Source: Adhaeribacter aquaticus DSM 16391 (GTDB taxonomy: Bacteria; Bacteroidota; Bacteroidia; Cytophagales; Hymenobacteraceae). From it: a stretch of 64,000 nt of DNA. The notes beneath the pieces were generated by a model that was given only the letters and a program-made list of their open reading frames with translations, made no database searches and had not been told where the DNA came from. The stretch spans positions 3,056,634 to 3,120,633 of the forward strand of contig NZ_KI421517.1 in the NCBI RefSeq assembly GCF_000473365.1, written 5' to 3'. The translations under genes were made by a program, and so were the position numbers. Every line of letters starts with the position of its first letter. Position 1 is the first letter of the stretch. Below are positions 4,142 through 11,867 of the stretch, piece after piece.

Positions 4142-4371
4142 GAGTAGCAGATTTTTGTGGTTGATCTAACCACAAAATAAGCTTTTATCGCTTTATTCAA
4201 AAACTAAATATGTTTCGTAGAATAAAAGCCTTTATCTCATGCTTTAGATAAGAAAATAAATTTAAAGTAAATATTAATAAAGGTGGTTAATAAGGAAGGA
4301 AAGATTACTGAATACTTCCGGGCTATTTATTAAATTTTAAAACATCTGAAACACTTAATAGTTTTACGGAT

Positions 4372-4844: not shown

Positions 4845-5732
4845 GTGGCAGAATATTCTATAAAAGAGTTGGAGCAATTATCAGGCATAAAGGCCCATAC
4901 CATTCGGATATGGGAGCAACGCTATGGAATATTAAACCCAAAACGTACCAACACTAATATTCGCTATTACGACGATGCCGATTTAAAAAATATTCTGAAT
5001 ATATCACTGCTAAATGGGCAAGGCTATAAAATATCACGCCTGGCACAAATGTCGGATAAGCAAGTAGCCGAAGAAGTAATGTTGCTTACCTCCAAAACAG
5101 CTCCTTCCTCGCAACAGTTAAATGCCTTACTGGTCTCCATGATTGAAATGGATGAGGAGAAATTTGATCGGGTTTTGACTACAGCCATTGTGCAACGTGG
5201 GGTAGAAAAAACTATGTTGGATATAGTTTTGCCACTTCTGAGGAAAACCGGTATCCTGTGGCAAACAGGTAATATTACGCCAGCTCAGGAGCATTTTATT
5301 AGTAATATTATCCGTCAAAAATTATTTGTAGCCATAGATGGACAAATTCCGGTTAATAAAGGTGGGACTTTGCGGTTTTTGTTATACCTGCCCGAAGGTG
5401 AATTACATGAAATTGGGTTATTGTTTTGTAATTTTATTTTGCGCAACCGTGGTTACCATGTTATGTACCTGGGGCAAAATCTTCCATTTGTAGATCTGAC
5501 TTCTGCCGTCCAAACTTACCAGCCTCATTTTATCTGTACGGCCTTTACCATAATGGCTGGCCAGGAAACTATGCAGGATTATATTAACCGGCTATCTCAG
5601 TTGGCTCAGAATATAATTGTTTATATTGGTGGGGGCCATTTGCAAACTTCTCCTATTGTATTCCCCCAAAATATAGTTCCTATTTCCACACTTCACCAGT
5701 TTGTAGAGCAGGTAGCCAGCATTGAGCGGTAA
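4845..5732 (+). CDS. CarH/LitR-type MerR regulator with B12-binding domain
   Basis: A 295-aa predicted light-sensing transcription factor. The N-terminal MerR winged helix (residues 3-70) has the canonical HTIRIWEQRYGI. A helical-bundle cap follows (about 85-165) with W139-x9-E149-H150, the motif that shields the upper face of adenosylcobalamin in CarH. The Rossmann B12 domain (about 175-295) carries E186-x-H188-x-x-G191, with H188 the expected lower cobalt ligand, and IGGGH at 261-265. At the position after the Trp, where Thermus CarH has the His that ligates cobalt after illumination, this protein has Gln140. The start is GTG at 4845; no in-frame ATG fits. Its place between crtZ and an ECF sigma gene points to light control of carotenoid genes. 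Cofactor and light response are inferred. Confidence 0.88.
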   Translation: MAEYSIKELEQLSGIKAHTIRIWEQRYGILNPKRTNTNIRYYDDADLKNILNISLLNGQGYKISRLAQMSDKQVAEEVMLLTSKTAPSSQQLNALLVSMIEMDEEKFDRVLTTAIVQRGVEKTMLDIVLPLLRKTGILWQTGNITPAQEHFISNIIRQKLFVAIDGQIPVNKGGTLRFLLYLPEGELHEIGLLFCNFILRNRGYHVMYLGQNLPFVDLTSAVQTYQPHFICTAFTIMAGQETMQDYINRLSQLAQNIIVYIGGGHLQTSPIVFPQNIVPISTLHQFVEQVASIER

Positions 5733-5856
5733 TTCTGCCTGCTATAAAAATCTTTCCAAAGCTTAAACAAAAAAAAGTAAAATCTGGAAATCCAGCAGGA
5801 TTGTCTGTGCCGTAGGTCTGCTTATTACCTTAAACATTGTTTGATAACATATTTTT

Positions 5857-5952
5857 TTGTTTAATAATTTAGTATAAACATTAAACAAGATTAAATCCTT
5901 TTGGTATATTTGCCGTAAGGTTGTTTAAGTAAGGCAAATCACATATTAAACA
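5857..5952 (+). promoter_or_regulatory. Promoter region of the ECF sigma gene with TTAAACAA boxes
   Basis: TATATTTG at 5905-5912 matches the Bacteroidota -7 element TAnnTTTG and lies 43 bp before the sigma gene. There is no TTG at the matching -33 position; ATTAAACAA (5880-5888) sits there instead. That box is an exact inverted repeat of TTGTTTAAT at 5857-5865. Further copies are TTGTTTAA (5931-5938) and ATTAAACA (5945-5952). A weak -33 replaced by repeated boxes suggests a regulated promoter. The adjacent B12-type regulator is the obvious candidate binder, which is inference. Confidence 0.5.
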
Positions 5953-5954
5953 CT

Positions 5955-6470
5955 ATGACTGCTCTAGAATTTACAAACCAGGTCCAGAAGCTTTCTTTTT
6001 CTTTAAAACCAATTGCCATGCATCTTACCCGAGATTTAGATGATGCGAAGGATTTGGTACAGGAAACATTATTAAAAGCCTTGTCTAATAAAGATAAATT
6101 TAAAGCTGGTACCAACCTGAAGGCCTGGCTTTATACTATTATGCGTAATTCTTTTATTAACAATTATAATAAAGTTACGAAACGGAGCAGTAACCTGGAT
6201 AGTGATGATTATTTTTTATATATTAATGATGATCAAAGCTTTATTGCGCATAACGGGGCAGTTAGCAACTTTGTGTTGAATGACATTAATCATGCTATTG
6301 CCTATTTGCACGAAGATTTCCGGGAGCCTTTTATGATGTATTTTACCGGATATAAGTATCTGGAAATAGCAGATAAGCTTCAGATTCCAATTGGAACGGT
6401 AAAAAACCGGATTCACATTGCGCGTAAAGAGCTAAAGCAGTTATTGCATGTTTATAATCCGGTTGCTTAA
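5955..6470 (+). CDS. ECF-type RNA polymerase sigma factor
   Basis: A 171-aa extracytoplasmic-function sigma factor. Region 2 spans about residues 8-75 with LTRDLDDAKDLVQETLLKAL (2.1-2.2) and FKAGTNLKAWLYTIMRNSFI (2.3-2.4). Region 4 spans about 105-165 with the helix-turn-helix YLEIADKLQIPIGTVKNRIH. There is no C-terminal extension and no adjacent anti-sigma gene. It lies between the CarH-like gene and crtI, which is reminiscent of the LitR-LitS pair that drives light-induced carotenoid synthesis in Streptomyces. Control of the crt genes is therefore a reasonable inference but is not shown by sequence. Confidence 0.93.
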   Translation: MTALEFTNQVQKLSFSLKPIAMHLTRDLDDAKDLVQETLLKALSNKDKFKAGTNLKAWLYTIMRNSFINNYNKVTKRSSNLDSDDYFLYINDDQSFIAHNGAVSNFVLNDINHAIAYLHEDFREPFMMYFTGYKYLEIADKLQIPIGTVKNRIHIARKELKQLLHVYNPVA

Positions 6471-6546
6471 CATTAAACAAAATTCTATTTTAAAGCCTTC
6501 ACTAAAAGCATAGCCTTTTTTAAATATTTATCGTATTAACCCTTGC

Positions 6547-8022
6547 ATGAGCATAACAAAAAAAGTTGTTGTAATTGGTGCCGGATTTGCCGGAATGGCG
6601 GCGGCTACCAGTTTGGCCAGGCAAGGTTATACCGTAAAAGTATTAGAAAAGCATGATCGTCCTGGCGGCCGGGCCCGTTCCTTTTCAACACAAGGCTTTA
6701 CTTTTGATATGGGGCCCAGTTGGTATTGGATGCCCGACGTTTTTGAGAAGTATTTTCAGAAGTTTGGCAAAAGTACTGCAGATTATTACCAGCTCCTGCG
6801 CCTGGACCCGTCTTATACCATTGTGTTTGGCCAAAATGATTTTATGCCAATACCGGCCAAATTACCGGAATTGCATAGTCTTTTTGAAAGCCTTGAGCCA
6901 GGCAGCAGTAAAAAGCTTACTGAATTTCTGGAACAGGCAGCATACAAATATGAGGTAGGCATAAACCAGCTGGTATATAAACCTGGCCGTTCCTTATTTG
7001 AATTTCTGGATTTAAAGCTGCTGTTAGACGTTTTCCGGATGGATGTTTTCCAAAGCATGCATCAGCACGTTCGTAAGTTTTTCCGGAACGAAAAGATTAT
7101 AAAACTGATGGAGTTTCCGATTTTGTTTTTGGGAGCTCTGCCTCAAAATACCCCGGCCCTGTATAGCCTGATGAACTATGCCGATATAGCCTTAGGAACC
7201 TGGTATCCGAAAGGTGGGATGTATAAAATTGTGGAGGCCATGGTTAAATTGGCAGAATCGGAAGGAGTTGAGTTTTTATACAACCAGGAAGTAACCTGGC
7301 TCGAAACAGAGAAAGCCGTTATTAAACGGGTGCATACTTCGCAGGATATTTTTGAAGCGGATGTAGTGGTAGCCGGAGCAGATTACCACCACGTAGAGAA
7401 AAATTTGTTGCCACCTGGCTTGCAAACTTACTCGGATAGTTATTGGGCAAAGCGGGAAATGGCGCCTTCTTCACTTATATTTTATTTAGGGATAAATAAG
7501 AAACTGGACAAGCTGCAGCACCATAATCTATTTTTTGATGAAGATTTTGAGCCGCACGCAAAGGAAATTTATCAAACGCCAAAATGGCCGACAAAACCTT
7601 TATTTTATGTGTCGGCCCCGTCTAAAACAGATCCGGAGGTAGCACCGGCTAATTGTGAAAATTTGTTTATTCTTATACCGGTTGCTCCAGATTTACAGGA
7701 TACCGAGGCAACCAGAGAAAAATATTATGACATGGTGATGCAACGGCTCGAACAATTAACGCAGCAAAATATTCGGGAGCACGTAATATTCAAAAGAAGC
7801 TATGCGCATCAAGATTTTATAAAGGATTATCATGCTTTTAAAGGAAATGCTTATGGGTTAGCTAATACGCTTATGCAAACAGCTATCTTAAAACCTAGTC
7901 TTAAAAGTAAGAAAGTTAAAAACCTTTTTTATACCGGGCAGCTTACGGTACCTGGGCCTGGTGTGCCTCCATCGCTAATTTCCGGCCAAGTGGTGGCTCA
8001 GGAGGTTTGTAAAGAATTTTAA
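6547..8022 (+). CDS. crtI: Phytoene desaturase
   Basis: A 491-aa FAD-dependent CrtI-type desaturase converting phytoene stepwise to lycopene. The N-terminal dinucleotide-binding fold VVVIGAGFAGMAAATSLA (about 7-24) is followed by the RPGGRA motif (about 38-43) and FDMGPSWYWMP. The C-terminal CrtI signature FYTGQLTVPGPGVPPSLISG lies at about 463-482. Length matches the family (about 490 aa). It begins 76 bp after the sigma gene, and crtB follows after 124 bp. The protein probably associates with the inner membrane. Confidence 0.96.
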   Translation: MSITKKVVVIGAGFAGMAAATSLARQGYTVKVLEKHDRPGGRARSFSTQGFTFDMGPSWYWMPDVFEKYFQKFGKSTADYYQLLRLDPSYTIVFGQNDFMPIPAKLPELHSLFESLEPGSSKKLTEFLEQAAYKYEVGINQLVYKPGRSLFEFLDLKLLLDVFRMDVFQSMHQHVRKFFRNEKIIKLMEFPILFLGALPQNTPALYSLMNYADIALGTWYPKGGMYKIVEAMVKLAESEGVEFLYNQEVTWLETEKAVIKRVHTSQDIFEADVVVAGADYHHVEKNLLPPGLQTYSDSYWAKREMAPSSLIFYLGINKKLDKLQHHNLFFDEDFEPHAKEIYQTPKWPTKPLFYVSAPSKTDPEVAPANCENLFILIPVAPDLQDTEATREKYYDMVMQRLEQLTQQNIREHVIFKRSYAHQDFIKDYHAFKGNAYGLANTLMQTAILKPSLKSKKVKNLFYTGQLTVPGPGVPPSLISGQVVAQEVCKEF

Positions 8023-8146: not shown

Positions 8147-8983
8147 ATGATGGAATTATTTAACCTGACTAGCTATAAGTGCAGTAAATTAATTACGCAT
8201 CAGTATAGTACCTCTTTTACGCTGGGTATAAAAACCCTGGATAAAAAGTTTCATTTTCCTATTTATGCCATTTATGGTTTTGTGCGCTTTGCCGACGAAA
8301 TTGTAGATACCTTTCATGATTATGACAAGGAGGAACTATTTCAGGATTTTAAAAAGTGTACCTACGAAGCCATCAATAAAAAGATTAGTTTAAACCCGGT
8401 ATTACATTCTTTTCAGCAGGTAGTACACCAATACGACATTTCCGGAGAATACATAGAAGCTTTTTTGGCGAGCATGGAGATGGATCTTTATGGGCAACGC
8501 TACAATAAAGATTTGTACGATCAATATATTTATGGTTCGGCAGAGGTAGTTGGGTTAATGTGTCTGCAGGTATTTTGCGAAGGCGATTTAGAATTGTTTC
8601 ATCAGCTAAAAGAACCAGCCAGAAGTTTAGGGGCGGCCTTTCAGAAAGTAAATTTCCTGCGCGATATGCAGAGCGATTACCAGGAGCGCGGAAGGGTTTA
8701 TTTTCCGAAAGTAGATTTCCGAACCTTTGATAATGATTGCAAAGCAGCTATTGAGCAAGATATTTTAAAGGATTTTAATGCTGCCTATGCAGGAATATTG
8801 CAATTGCCTAAATCAGCTAAAATGGGGGTTTACCTGGCCTATATTTACTATTTAAAACTTTTTAAAAAAATTCAGGGGCTTCCGGCAGCACGAATCTTAA
8901 CAGAACGCGTAAGAGTACCTAATAATACCAAGTTAGCCTTGCTGGTTGGGTCTTACTTTCGTTACAGGTTAAATACAATTTAA
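8147..8983 (+). CDS. crtB: Phytoene synthase
   Basis: A 278-aa trans-isoprenyl diphosphate synthase (head-to-head) that condenses two geranylgeranyl diphosphates into phytoene. Both Asp-rich Mg-binding motifs are visible: D50EIVD54 in the RFADEIVDTF context, and NFLRDMQSDYQERGRVYFP starting near residue 169. Length is normal for the squalene/phytoene synthase family. A second Met at 8150 is an equally possible start. The next gene starts only 2 bp after the stop, with a GTG, so the two are very likely co-translated. Confidence 0.95.
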   Translation: MMELFNLTSYKCSKLITHQYSTSFTLGIKTLDKKFHFPIYAIYGFVRFADEIVDTFHDYDKEELFQDFKKCTYEAINKKISLNPVLHSFQQVVHQYDISGEYIEAFLASMEMDLYGQRYNKDLYDQYIYGSAEVVGLMCLQVFCEGDLELFHQLKEPARSLGAAFQKVNFLRDMQSDYQERGRVYFPKVDFRTFDNDCKAAIEQDILKDFNAAYAGILQLPKSAKMGVYLAYIYYLKLFKKIQGLPAARILTERVRVPNNTKLALLVGSYFRYRLNTI

Positions 8984-8985
8984 AC

Positions 8986-9519
8986 GTGCATATACTGCTA
9001 CTATCTATAAGTCTACTTATTACCGGGTTTTTGTTTGAGGAGAGGAATGAAACGTATAAAGTTCATGACTTGCGTACCATGCTGGAAATAGCGGCAAAAA
9101 ATAAAGAAGCCTGCGAAAAGCTGATAAAGCACCTTGATGGGTATAATGGCAAAGATCCGGTTGTTTTGGGGTTTGAAGCGGCCGCTCATGGCATAATGGC
9201 GAAGCACGCCTGGAGCCCGTATTATAAAATGCGCTACCTCCGGACCTCTGCTAAAATGTTTGAAGAAGTTATTAAAGAACATCCTCAGGTAGCTGAAATT
9301 CGTTTTCTCAGGTATACGCTGGAGTATTTTATACCCCGGTACCTGAATATGAGTGAACACATGGATGAAGACAAGAAAGTATTCCTGATGAGTTTGCTGC
9401 GGTATCCTAACTCTGATTTGGACGGAGAAATAATTCAGAACATGCGCCGTTTCTTATTAAAACATCCAGATAACCTGACGGAGCAGGAAAAGAAACAACT
9501 AAATAATATTAAAGCCTGA
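8986..9519 (+). CDS. Conserved-looking exported protein of the crt operon, unknown function
   Basis: A 177-aa protein whose GTG start follows the crtB stop by 2 bp and whose TGA stop overlaps the lycopene cyclase ATG by 1 bp (gATGt), so it is embedded in the translation-coupled crt run. Residues 1-17 are hydrophobic (HILLLSISLLITGFLF) and could be a signal peptide or anchor. The rest is predicted helical, charged and repeat-like (LDGYNGKDPVVLGFEAAAHG; KHPDNLTEQEKKQL), somewhat like a tetratricopeptide-type solenoid. I see no catalytic motif and do not recognise a family. Its position argues for a role in carotenoid synthesis, export or membrane placement. Confidence 0.8.
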   Translation: MHILLLSISLLITGFLFEERNETYKVHDLRTMLEIAAKNKEACEKLIKHLDGYNGKDPVVLGFEAAAHGIMAKHAWSPYYKMRYLRTSAKMFEEVIKEHPQVAEIRFLRYTLEYFIPRYLNMSEHMDEDKKVFLMSLLRYPNSDLDGEIIQNMRRFLLKHPDNLTEQEKKQLNNIKA

Positions 9520-10214
9520 TGTATATTTATTTATACCTGAACCTGTTTACTATTTTTTTTCCCTTTGTACTTTCCTTTGATAAACGTGTTCATTTTTATA
9601 CTCATTGGTCCAGCCTTTTTCCGGCCATTGCTCTTAATGCCTTGATTTTTGTTATTTGGGATAGCTTTTTTACTTCCATTGGGGTGTGGGGCTTTAATCC
9701 TGATTATTTACTAGGAATTTATTTATTTGAATTACCCTTAGAAGAATTGCTTTTCTTTTTTACGGTGCCCTATGCCTGTGTATTTATTTATGAAACTCTT
9801 AATACTTATATAGCCAAAGACTTTTTGCAACCCTATGCTAAATTTATTTCAGTTTTCTTGATTTTGGTCCTAACACCATTGGCCTTTATTTTTCTAAATA
9901 AATTTTATACCTCTGTTACCTTTTTATTTCTGGTTCTGGTTCAGGTAATTCATTTATTTACCTTACAAGATAAAGTTTTAGGCCGGTTTTACTTAGCTTA
10001 TTTGGTGCATTTGGTGCCTTTTTTGCTCGTTAATGGGGTATTAACTGCTTTACCTATAGTGTGGTATAATGATTTTTATAATCTTGGTCTTAGGATTAGT
10101 ACCATTCCAATAGAAGATACCATGTATTCCATGCTTATGCTTTTGATTACTATTACCGTATATGAAGTGTTGAATGAAAGGAAAGTAAAACAAAAAGCAG
10201 TTGTAATGGTTTAA
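9519..10214 (+). CDS. crtY: Lycopene cyclase, fused CrtYcd/CrtYef-type
   Basis: A 231-aa, very hydrophobic protein with about six to seven membrane helices. It has two copies of the lycopene-cyclase domain repeat, each with its acidic signature: E71LPLEE76 in the first half and P197IEDT201 in the second. This is the heterodimeric-type cyclase (CrtYc + CrtYd of actinobacteria, or the CarRA cyclase domain of fungi) fused in one chain, as is usual in Bacteroidota; it is unrelated to the FAD-binding plant/CrtY type. Expected reaction: lycopene to beta-carotene. Start overlaps the previous stop by 1 bp; ispH follows after 5 bp. Confidence 0.9.
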   Translation: MYIYLYLNLFTIFFPFVLSFDKRVHFYTHWSSLFPAIALNALIFVIWDSFFTSIGVWGFNPDYLLGIYLFELPLEELLFFFTVPYACVFIYETLNTYIAKDFLQPYAKFISVFLILVLTPLAFIFLNKFYTSVTFLFLVLVQVIHLFTLQDKVLGRFYLAYLVHLVPFLLVNGVLTALPIVWYNDFYNLGLRISTIPIEDTMYSMLMLLITITVYEVLNERKVKQKAVVMV

Positions 10215-10219
10215 AAACT

Positions 10220-11065
10220 ATGTATAACCTTCAGGTACATATCGATCCAAGTTCTGGTTTTTGTTTTGGCGTAATCTATGCTATTCAAATGGCAGAAGAT
10301 ATTCTGGATGAACAGGGATATTTATATTGTTTAGGTGATATAGTGCATAATGATGAAGAAGTAGAGCGCCTGGAAAGAAAGGGTTTGCGGATTATTAGTT
10401 ACGAGGTATACAAGGAGCTAAAAAATGAGCAGGTATTAATCAGAGCTCACGGTGAACCCCCCAAAACATATGAAATAGCTTTAAGAAATAATTTAAATTT
10501 AATAGATGCTTCTTGTCCGGTAGTATTAAAGCTGCAAAACCGGATTAAATCCTCTTTTGATAAAAAAGAACCACTTTATATTTACGGCAAGCATGGCCAT
10601 GCAGAAGTGGTTGGTTTATTAGGTCAAACTAATAACGAGGCAGTTGTTTTTGAATCTTTAGATGAATTGTTACAGCAGGAACTGCCTCCTAATATTACAC
10701 TCTACAGTCAGACTACTAAAGGAACAGATAATTTTTACCGCATAAAGCAGGTTTTAGAAGAAAAAGGACATACGGTGGAGGCAAATGATACCATCTGCCG
10801 CCAGGTTTCTAATCGCGATAGGGATTTGCGAAAGTTTGCAGCCAAGTATGATAAAGTAGTTTTTGTTTCCGGTACGAAATCTTCTAATGGAAAGGTGCTT
10901 TATCAGATTTGTAAAGAAACCAATCCTAGTACTTATTTTATTTCTAAAGTAGAAGAACTGAAACCTGATATGTTTGCTCCCAATGATTCAGTGGGAATTT
11001 GTGGGGCAACTTCCACGCCTATGTGGTTAATGGAAAACGTACGAGATGCCTTACTTGCCTTTTAA
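10220..11065 (+). CDS. ispH: 4-hydroxy-3-methylbut-2-enyl diphosphate reductase
   Basis: A 281-aa Fe-S enzyme catalysing the last step of the MEP pathway, HMBPP to IPP plus DMAPP. The three conserved cysteines that hold the 4Fe-4S cluster are C15 (SSGFCFGV), C99 (DASCPVV) and C193 (DTICRQVSNR). Other family marks are IRAHGEPP (about 74-81), IYGKHGHAEV (about 121-130) and SSNGKVLY. It follows the cyclase gene by 5 bp, placing isoprenoid supply in the same transcript as carotenoid synthesis. Confidence 0.95.
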   Translation: MYNLQVHIDPSSGFCFGVIYAIQMAEDILDEQGYLYCLGDIVHNDEEVERLERKGLRIISYEVYKELKNEQVLIRAHGEPPKTYEIALRNNLNLIDASCPVVLKLQNRIKSSFDKKEPLYIYGKHGHAEVVGLLGQTNNEAVVFESLDELLQQELPPNITLYSQTTKGTDNFYRIKQVLEEKGHTVEANDTICRQVSNRDRDLRKFAAKYDKVVFVSGTKSSNGKVLYQICKETNPSTYFISKVEELKPDMFAPNDSVGICGATSTPMWLMENVRDALLAF

Positions 11066-11183: not shown

Positions 11184-11867
11184 GTGAATAACTTTTTGTA
11201 CATAAACCGCGGGATCTTAATTGCAGCTATAATAATAATTAGTTGGGTTGGATGTCTTTGGTTTTTGCTGCACCTGAACATTAATTTTGCTTCACCAGTG
11301 CCTTATGTAATGGTATTGGTGCAAACGCATTTATACACCGGGCTATTTATAACGGCGCATGATGCTATGCATGGGGTGGTTTCCAGAAATAAAAAGTTAA
11401 ACAAAATAATTGGGGTACTTACTGCTGGCTTATTTGCTTATAACTCGTATAATCGGTTATATCCCAAACATCATGAGCATCATCGGTTTGTGGGTACCCA
11501 GCAAGACCCAGATTACCATGGTGGAAATTTTTTTGCCTGGTATTATAGCTTTTTGAAACAATATATAACCTGGTGGCAAATAGTATTAATGGCCATAACT
11601 TTTAATGGCCTAAAACTGATTTATCCGGTTCAGAATGTAATTATGTTTTGGGTTGTGCCTTCCTTACTGGCGACCTTTCAATTATTTTACTTTGGTACTT
11701 ACCTGCCGCACCGAGGTGAGCATGCTCTTGATAACCGCCATAAATCCCATACACAAGAAAAAAATCACCTATGGGCTTTCCTGAGTTGCTACTTCTTTGG
11801 GTATCATTATGAACACCACGATAAGCCTTATGTACCGTGGTGGCAGCTATACAAACAGAAAACATAA
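11184..11867 (+). CDS. crtW: Beta-carotene ketolase, CrtW type
   Basis: A 227-aa membrane di-iron oxygenase of the fatty-acid-desaturase superfamily. Histidine boxes are H59DAMH63, H96HEHH100 (followed by the CrtW-typical RFVGTQQDPDYH) and H208YEHH212. Helices lie at about 8-30, 40-58, 75-90 and 150-180. CrtW adds 4-keto groups to beta-carotene (canthaxanthin) or zeaxanthin (astaxanthin). The start is GTG at 11184, 118 bp after ispH. The stop codon lies inside the left arm of a strong terminator. Ketolase rather than plain desaturase is supported by the HDAMHG box and the crt neighbours. Confidence 0.88.
   Translation: MNNFLYINRGILIAAIIIISWVGCLWFLLHLNINFASPVPYVMVLVQTHLYTGLFITAHDAMHGVVSRNKKLNKIIGVLTAGLFAYNSYNRLYPKHHEHHRFVGTQQDPDYHGGNFFAWYYSFLKQYITWWQIVLMAITFNGLKLIYPVQNVIMFWVVPSLLATFQLFYFGTYLPHRGEHALDNRHKSHTQEKNHLWAFLSCYFFGYHYEHHDKPYVPWWQLYKQKT

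Follow-up and report, generated by a model that had tools for sequence, protein, structure and literature searches.

The closest described counterparts of the system treated here are the CarH regulators of Thermus thermophilus, Bacillus megaterium and Myxococcus xanthus, in which a MerR domain is joined to a helical-bundle and Rossmann B12 domain; the LitR-LitS pair of Streptomyces coelicolor, in which the gene of a B12-dependent MerR photoreceptor is paired with that of a sigma factor directing the crtE promoter, LitR being described as an activator of litS (account in PMC12705666); the CtMerR protein of Chloracidobacterium thermophilum (PDB 8JBS/8JBT) and the photocobilin SasPcob; and CarA, a B12-independent paralogue in Myxococcus xanthus. 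Here we analyze a 64,000-nucleotide stretch of the genome of Adhaeribacter aquaticus DSM 16391 (contig NZ_KI421517.1, positions 3,056,634 to 3,120,633 of the forward strand; hereafter the window), in which the gene of a MerR regulator with a B12-binding domain adjoins that of an extracytoplasmic function (ECF) sigma factor within a carotenoid (crt) cluster. We consider it probable that this CarH-type adenosylcobalamin regulator controls the dedicated ECF gene, with dark repression the likeliest mode, and that the sigma factor in turn switches on carotenoid synthesis in light. The central genes, in coordinates of the window, are:

4845..5732, + strand: MerR regulator with a B12-binding domain, CarH/LitR-type (GTG start, 295 amino acids; Pfam)
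5955..6470, + strand: ECF sigma factor gene (171 amino acids; Pfam Sigma70_r2 and Sigma70_r4_2)
6547..8022, + strand: crtI-type phytoene desaturase (NCBIfam CrtID, 774.7 bits, cut-off 640)
8147..8983, + strand: crtB, phytoene synthase (PF00494, E 4e-42)

An earlier note on this DNA, made from the letters alone, had described a MerR gene beside an ECF gene with crtI and crtB downstream, and this order is borne out by the open reading frames (ORFs) and family matches.

Comparison with described systems

The regulator of the window, henceforth the MerR protein, shares with CarH the domain make-up given above, the tryptophan, the Glu-His pair and the lower histidine of the B12 site, the half-site TnnACA and the linkage to crt genes. 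It differs in having Gln where Thermus CarH has His132, in an inverted repeat with a 16/17-bp spacer in place of tandem 11-bp direct repeats, in that the repeats of the window precede the ECF gene, and in an identity of about 22% to Thermus CarH within the B12 domain. Adjacency of a B12 MerR gene and an ECF gene, as in LitR-LitS, is found in the window, in the crt loci of the source family and in a further set of named loci considered below, and this in a phylum that we take to be other than that of Streptomyces. To this extent the likeness to LitR-LitS drawn by the earlier note stands; it fails in that LitR is described as a light-activated promoter of litS (PMC12705666). Because LitR promotes litS transcription, a dark-repressed sigma gene would fit CarH better than LitR-LitS.

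Clusters with a comparable layout have been described in Echinicola marina, an isolate named GF1 and Nonlabens spongiae, all of which we take to be Bacteroidota. The crt cluster of the first has rpoE and merR (PMC8683446); the second, a zeaxanthin producer, has a B12-binding MerR before its crt genes, for which regulation under photooxidative stress was suggested (PMC6974559); in the third, merR is the first gene of the myxol cluster (PMC11855829). These accounts differ from ours in that their available passages contain no operator and no ECF cascade, nor do they hold a light test. Among the matches listed from the open-licence literature, no paper was found on the operator, on the missing histidine in this phylum or on a light test, and no experimental report of B12 light sensing of Bacteroidota pigment genes; a combined search for CarH, Bacteroidetes, sigma factor, carotenoid and light likewise returned no open-licence paper, and the main text of a review (PMC12627116) is without the words 'Bacteroid', 'LitR' or 'cobalamin'. 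The layout is thus partly in print already.

Domain architecture and light signature of the MerR protein

Pfam places MerR_1 at residues 4-70 of the MerR protein, B12-binding_2 at 92-160 and B12-binding at 184-270, i.e. the make-up of class I CarH/LitR proteins, with an N-terminal MerR helix-turn-helix and C-terminal helical and Rossmann B12 domains. The residues that the earlier note had named as adenosylcobalamin-binding marks (W139, E149, H150, E186, H188 and G191) all stand at the positions it gave, and sequence alignment pairs W139, E149, H150 and H188 with W131, E141, H142 and H177 of Thermus CarH (numbered after passages of PMC11796333). We compared 116 homologues: the MerR protein itself, 55 from loci of its order and 60 sampled across the phylum. 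W139 is conserved in 115 of them, E149 in all 116, H150 in 107 and H188 in 108; being kept in nearly all of them, these residues are not a product of chance. The claim did not hold for G191 as a conserved mark, glycine being present in only 15 of the first 56 homologues and alanine, serine or valine in the rest. The signature reported for light-responsive B12 domains, namely GxxW, EH, GxxH and GxxxP (PMC11796333, in part), is complete in the MerR protein, the equivalent of the lower-ligand His177 included.

By sequence, the best PDB match of the MerR protein is Thermus CarH/LitR (E about 1e-19, aligned residues 4-223). An AF2 model was built from an alignment of 18 sequences including that of the window (pLDDT 87.8, pTM 0.74), and its Foldseek matches were re-compared, with Z taken over residues 84-295 of the model. 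The top matches are tied: CtMerR (Z 20.6; 3.1 A over 214 residues), Thermus CarH (20.0) and the photocobilins (19.6), CtMerR and SasPcob having the same signature; behind them come AppA (16.6) and methionine synthase (16.1). Together, alignment and model support the assignment of the MerR protein to the CarH-type B12 regulators. A cobalamin adenosyltransferase is encoded in the genome of Adhaeribacter aquaticus, and of 392 genomes sampled from the phylum, 81 have a regulator of the CarH kind (E up to 1e-30), 5 of them outside the source class.

A conserved inverted repeat between merR and the ECF gene

The merR-ECF intergenic DNA of the window spans 5733-5954 (222 bp). When 38 such regions from relatives, that of the window included, were compared, one shared element emerged, TGTTTAA-N16/17-TTAAACA. 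The window has the following elements, among them a match to TAnnTTTG, which we take to be the -7 consensus of the Bacteroidota primary sigma factor:

5858..5887, no strand: inverted repeat 1, TGTTTAA-N16-TTAAACA, exact copy, distal operator candidate
5905..5912, + strand: TATATTTG, match to the TAnnTTTG -7 element, between repeats 1 and 2
5922..5952, no strand: inverted repeat 2, TGTTTAA-N17-TTAAACA, exact copy, proximal operator candidate; its start lies 64 bp beyond that of repeat 1
6449..6479, no strand: third inverted repeat with one mismatch, a weak candidate that overlaps the ECF stop codon and precedes crtI

Paired copies start 42-64 bp apart in 22 of 26 pairs, the distance being 63 or 64 bp in 10. 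A repeat in the ECF-crtI gap was met, besides the window, only in L043 among the loci scanned.

To gauge the association of the repeat with gene content, we called a merR locus linked if it has crtI, crtB or an ECF gene, leaving out L039, whose contig ends in merR. With at most one mismatch, the repeat is present in 69 of 81 linked loci versus 3 of 34 unlinked ones (Fisher p 5e-15, the loci being related and not independent). Exact copies stand in 49 of the 81; for these loci, resampled sequence of equal neighbour frequencies gives expectations of 0.0 exact and 0.45 with one mismatch. Nine other spacer pairs were tested in the same 81 loci: the 8/9 pair yielded 15 with one mismatch (1 exact) and the remainder 0-5 (0 exact). 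By locus class, the repeat occurs in 50/54 loci with ECF and crt genes, 3/3 with ECF only, 16/24 with crt only and 3/34 with neither. The corresponding figures for 80 named loci, at least two of which (L194 and L195) lie on contigs already present in the first set, are 26/26, 17/22, 0/1 and 5/31; here L240 is classed as crt-only, its ECF match starting 922 bp past merR, beyond the 800-bp limit. In the two loci examined outside the source class, L175 and L186, both unlinked, the repeat was not found.

The exact repeat stands at 4 sites in the 5.17-Mb genome, 2 of them in the merR-ECF region, and the reversed control at none; ORFs in the 1.5-kb flanks of the two further sites, judged by eye, suggest no light gene. 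In 8 genomes of the source genus the exact repeat has 14 sites, of which 8 are at merR-ECF; the reversed control has 3. We treat the regulator as nearly single-target, a working assumption and not a proof.

The half-site TAAACA fits the CarH half-site TnnACA (PMC9304148, in part), here in inverted arrangement, and the repeat between merR and the ECF gene looks like a candidate binding site of the CarH-type regulator. The repeat is independent of the ECF gene, since it is present at 16 of the 24 loci in which crt genes follow merR with no ECF gene between (repeats beside merR in L069, L071, L164, L165, L174 and L178 among them). For the same reason we think it unlikely that the ECF factor binds the repeat; the MerR protein is its presumed binder. 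The light-switch hypothesis thereby gains a concrete candidate site.

The ECF sigma factor and its candidate promoters

The earlier note had further stated that the ECF factor lacks an anti-sigma partner, and indeed none is encoded in the 76-bp gap between the ECF gene and crtI, the search being limited to the locus and not extended to the rest of the genome. In the 54 loci with both genes the median gap is 42 bp, and 51 of the gaps are below 350 bp. We included 36 of 104 MerR-adjacent ECFs in a phylogenetic analysis with 29 other ECFs (29 of 30 from four genomes, that of L297 being left out as too short). A branch supported at 99/98 sets all the MerR-adjacent ECFs apart from the others, in a tree for which the program warns of long branches. 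The MerR-linked ECFs were collected by similarity to the ECF of the window, a criterion that would pass over dissimilar ECFs next to merR and that partly accounts for the single lineage. With this proviso, the tree supports the placement of the ECF gene in one MerR-linked lineage.

Upstream of merR, the compared crt loci of the source family have a crtZ-like gene, which in the window is preceded by a promoter-like element:

4340..4363, + strand: AAACA-N15-AGTT, promoter-like element starting 32 bp before the crtZ-like start codon
4372..4839, + strand: crtZ-like (beta-carotene hydroxylase-like) gene, ORF upstream of merR

The product of the latter has no Pfam or NCBIfam match at E 0.001; its presumed identity as crtZ comes from histidine-rich motifs and its place in the operon. 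The pattern AAAC[AT]-N15/16-[GA]GT[TA] is present in 25 of 42 crtZ upstream regions versus 0.15 expected, with all 25 copies starting at -31 to -34, and in 13 of 25 named loci. It is absent (0) from the control sets upstream of CrtB, unk177, CrtYcd, ComEC, PhoH, MraZ and GNAT genes, and occurs in 3/35 upstream regions of ispH, 2/35 of crtW, 2/38 of the ECF gene and 4/41 of crtI. A similar element precedes crtI in one genome group, where it follows a terminator-like hairpin (read by eye); of 14 genomes searched, 5 have a single copy each of its strict form, AACAAAG-N13..15-GGTAGCTT, and 9 have none. No common ECF promoter before crtI was seen by eye in the source genus. An AAC core is typical of ECF promoters, and on this ground the crtZ and crtI elements are tentatively read as putative promoters of the ECF factor; AAACA-N15-AGTT would accordingly be a candidate ECF-sigma promoter of crtZ-merR.

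Proposed mechanism and alternatives

We propose that in the dark the B12-loaded MerR protein would sit on the repeats at 5858-5887 and 5922-5952, which flank the -7 box at 5905-5912, and hold the ECF gene off. Light would cleave the cobalt-carbon bond, and the regulator would leave the DNA. Having no adjacent anti-sigma factor, the ECF factor would be limited by its own transcription, so that derepression would suffice. It would then transcribe crtZ-merR from the AAACA-N15-AGTT element, the extra regulator acting as a feedback that limits the response. Expression of crtI and later genes would come from read-through in the source genus, and, in some related genomes, from a comparable element of their own. 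The arrangement suggests, without proving, a light-triggered switch for a protective pigment; if this holds, pigment genes in many Bacteroidota are under the control of B12 light sensing.

Several observations weigh against this mechanism. The first concerns the release of DNA: the position of Thermus CarH His132 is Gln140 in the MerR protein, and this place is never His in the 116 homologues, being Gln in 74. Tetramer dissociation is reported to fail in the H132A variant of Thermus CarH (PMC10442372, in part). Because the cobalt-taking His132 is Gln here, the release step is not transferable from Thermus CarH. Were the mechanism true, release must differ from that of the best-studied model, as the histidine needed for the break-up of the Thermus tetramer is absent in 116/116. 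Passages of PMC11796333 bear on this point, in that the His132 position varies among light-responsive proteins, forms with Q or R are light-responsive in vitro, and CtMerR has R and SasPcob Q at this place, so that, as in the MerR protein, neither has His. After this source, His132 marks the Thermus-type CarH rather than the whole CarH/LitR family, and light sensing without it would be compatible with the known light-responsive Gln/Arg proteins.

The second concerns classification: the NCBIfam CarH equivalog NF052513 is the best-scoring NCBIfam model but gives only 103.5 bits, under its cut-off of 400, and the MerR protein is a relative of that equivalog, not a member.

Other points concern the operator. 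The loci counted above are related; 12 of the 81 linked ones lack the repeat, 9 of these with an intact B12 site; conversely, the repeat is present in L162, L166 and L183, where H150 is replaced by Q or R and H188 is retained; and the 8/9 spacer also reaches 15/81 once one mismatch is allowed. The tandem 11-bp operator of CarH, nnnnTnnACAn, has 0 copies in 5733-5954 and is found in 5 of 72 loci, which does not exceed the counts for other periods; as a candidate for the window and these loci it was rejected. A fixed operator geometry was also sought and not found: among the 38 merR-ECF loci (at most one mismatch), 10 have both copies, 12 the distal only, 12 the proximal only and 4 neither, and 26 have a TAnnTTTG box at most 60 bp from the ECF start and 12 do not. 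Since copy number, position and the -7 box vary in this way, no single blocking geometry is conserved, and the geometry of the repeats does not by itself decide between repressor and activator. Lastly, the strict crtZ-element pattern is missing in 17 of the 42 upstream regions and in 12 of the 25 named loci.

The variable geometry bears directly on the alternative that survives best, though we hold it unlikely: the B12 regulator would be a light-dependent activator of the LitR kind, so that illumination would lead it to activate the ECF promoter and not just to leave it. In favor of this reading, activators are common among MerR proteins, and 12 loci keep the distal repeat only, upstream of the -7 region; in another 12, however, the sole copy is the proximal one, which overlaps or follows the -7 box, a place fitting blocking. 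Among described systems, Streptomyces LitR is said to promote litS after light (PMC12705666, in part), but CarH proteins are repressors (PMC9304148, in part).

Another alternative, which appears less probable still, is a sensor with no role in light, for which the supply of adenosylcobalamin or the oxidation of cobalt (a redox or oxygen cue) would be the signal. The absence of His132 throughout the homologues would agree with it, and so would the merR-ECF pairs with a repeat in Labilibaculum and Ancylomarina records, which have no crt matches in the stretch compared. Against this stand the retention of the light-signature motifs together with the in vitro light response of Q or R proteins (PMC11796333, in part), and the linkage to carotenoid genes. 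In four ECF-only loci the gene after the ECF was read by eye as folE (L231, L255, L257 and L089, all but L231 with the repeat), a gene that in Pseudomonas is induced by light under class II LitR (PMC9758184, in part).

Finally, a B12-independent CarA-like regulator whose signal is sensed by another factor is very improbable for the window, for although such forms seem to exist in the same operon of the source family, the MerR protein keeps every B12 contact tested.

The forms in question, L066, L067 and L068, come from three genomes of one genus (G024, G036 and G032); their crt-linked regulator has H188Q and H150R, and the ECF and crt genes are kept. The repeat is absent in L066 and has one intact arm and two mismatches in the other in L067 and L068. 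With its lost B12 residues this crt-linked copy parallels Myxococcus CarA, from which the MerR protein of the window differs in keeping them, and a CarA-like form blind to B12 has likely arisen here independently. That the repeat is gone or reduced in these loci, along with the B12 histidines, counts in favor of the MerR protein as its binder, and the three loci provide a natural control for the hypothesis. In G024 there is also a second merR copy (L062) that retains W, EH and lower His; the stretch compared has no crt match.

Distribution and possible variable outputs of the module

The merR-ECF pair with its repeat is also found without nearby crt matches, in Bacteroidales and other records. 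The conserved unit may hence be a module of regulator, operator and ECF gene with a variable output. As a tentative generalization, which could hold but to which we give somewhat less than even credence, a B12 photoswitch module of merR, inverted repeat and ECF gene would be widespread in the source class; its whole family, acting from a 30-bp inverted-repeat operator, would let go of the DNA upon photolysis without the bis-histidine switch of Thermus CarH, and the outputs would be carotenoids via the ECF factor, carotenoids directly (in the genomes with adjacent crtI) and non-carotenoid functions.

Pairs of merR and an ECF gene lacking nearby crt matches were recorded in L219, L236, L239, L244, L254, L255, L262, L269 and others, from Bacteroidales and related organisms. 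In the 34 merR loci without crt matches, no protein group among the neighbors within about 4 kb occurs in more than 5 loci, and four groups occur in 5. One protein group lies just upstream of merR in L051, L074, L076, L078 and L139, which have no crt matches and no repeat. Its member in L051, the one tested, is a PF04240 carotenoid-synthesis protein; because of this, some of the 'unlinked' loci do have a carotenoid link, and in these five the operator may differ.

Other genes of the window and a further B12-domain protein

Downstream of crtB the cluster continues with:

8986..9519, + strand: 177-amino-acid protein, function unassigned by family searches, conserved in the ECF+crt loci of the source family
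9519..10214, + strand: lycopene cyclase (PF18916, TIGR03462)
10220..11065, + strand: ispH (NCBIfam PRK01045.1-1, above cut-off)
11184..11867, + strand: crtW-like carotenoid ketolase (PF00487; NCBIfam CrtW is the best family, at 241.5 bits, below its cut-off of 350)

The 177-amino-acid protein has no significant Pfam match and no NCBIfam or PHROG match; the position of its gene is kept in the family, between crtB and the gene for lycopene cyclase or ispH.

Elsewhere in the same genome (L309:5018-6085, - strand; G000:C1 near 4560574-4561203) a 355-amino-acid protein combines an unknown N-terminal part with a C-terminal B12 domain. Its light signature reads GRLW...EH, GDLH and YLGANTP; the residue equivalent to His132 is Gln, no MerR motif was seen, and the protein is possibly a second B12 photoreceptor. 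Several genomes of the source family have weak matches of comparable size.

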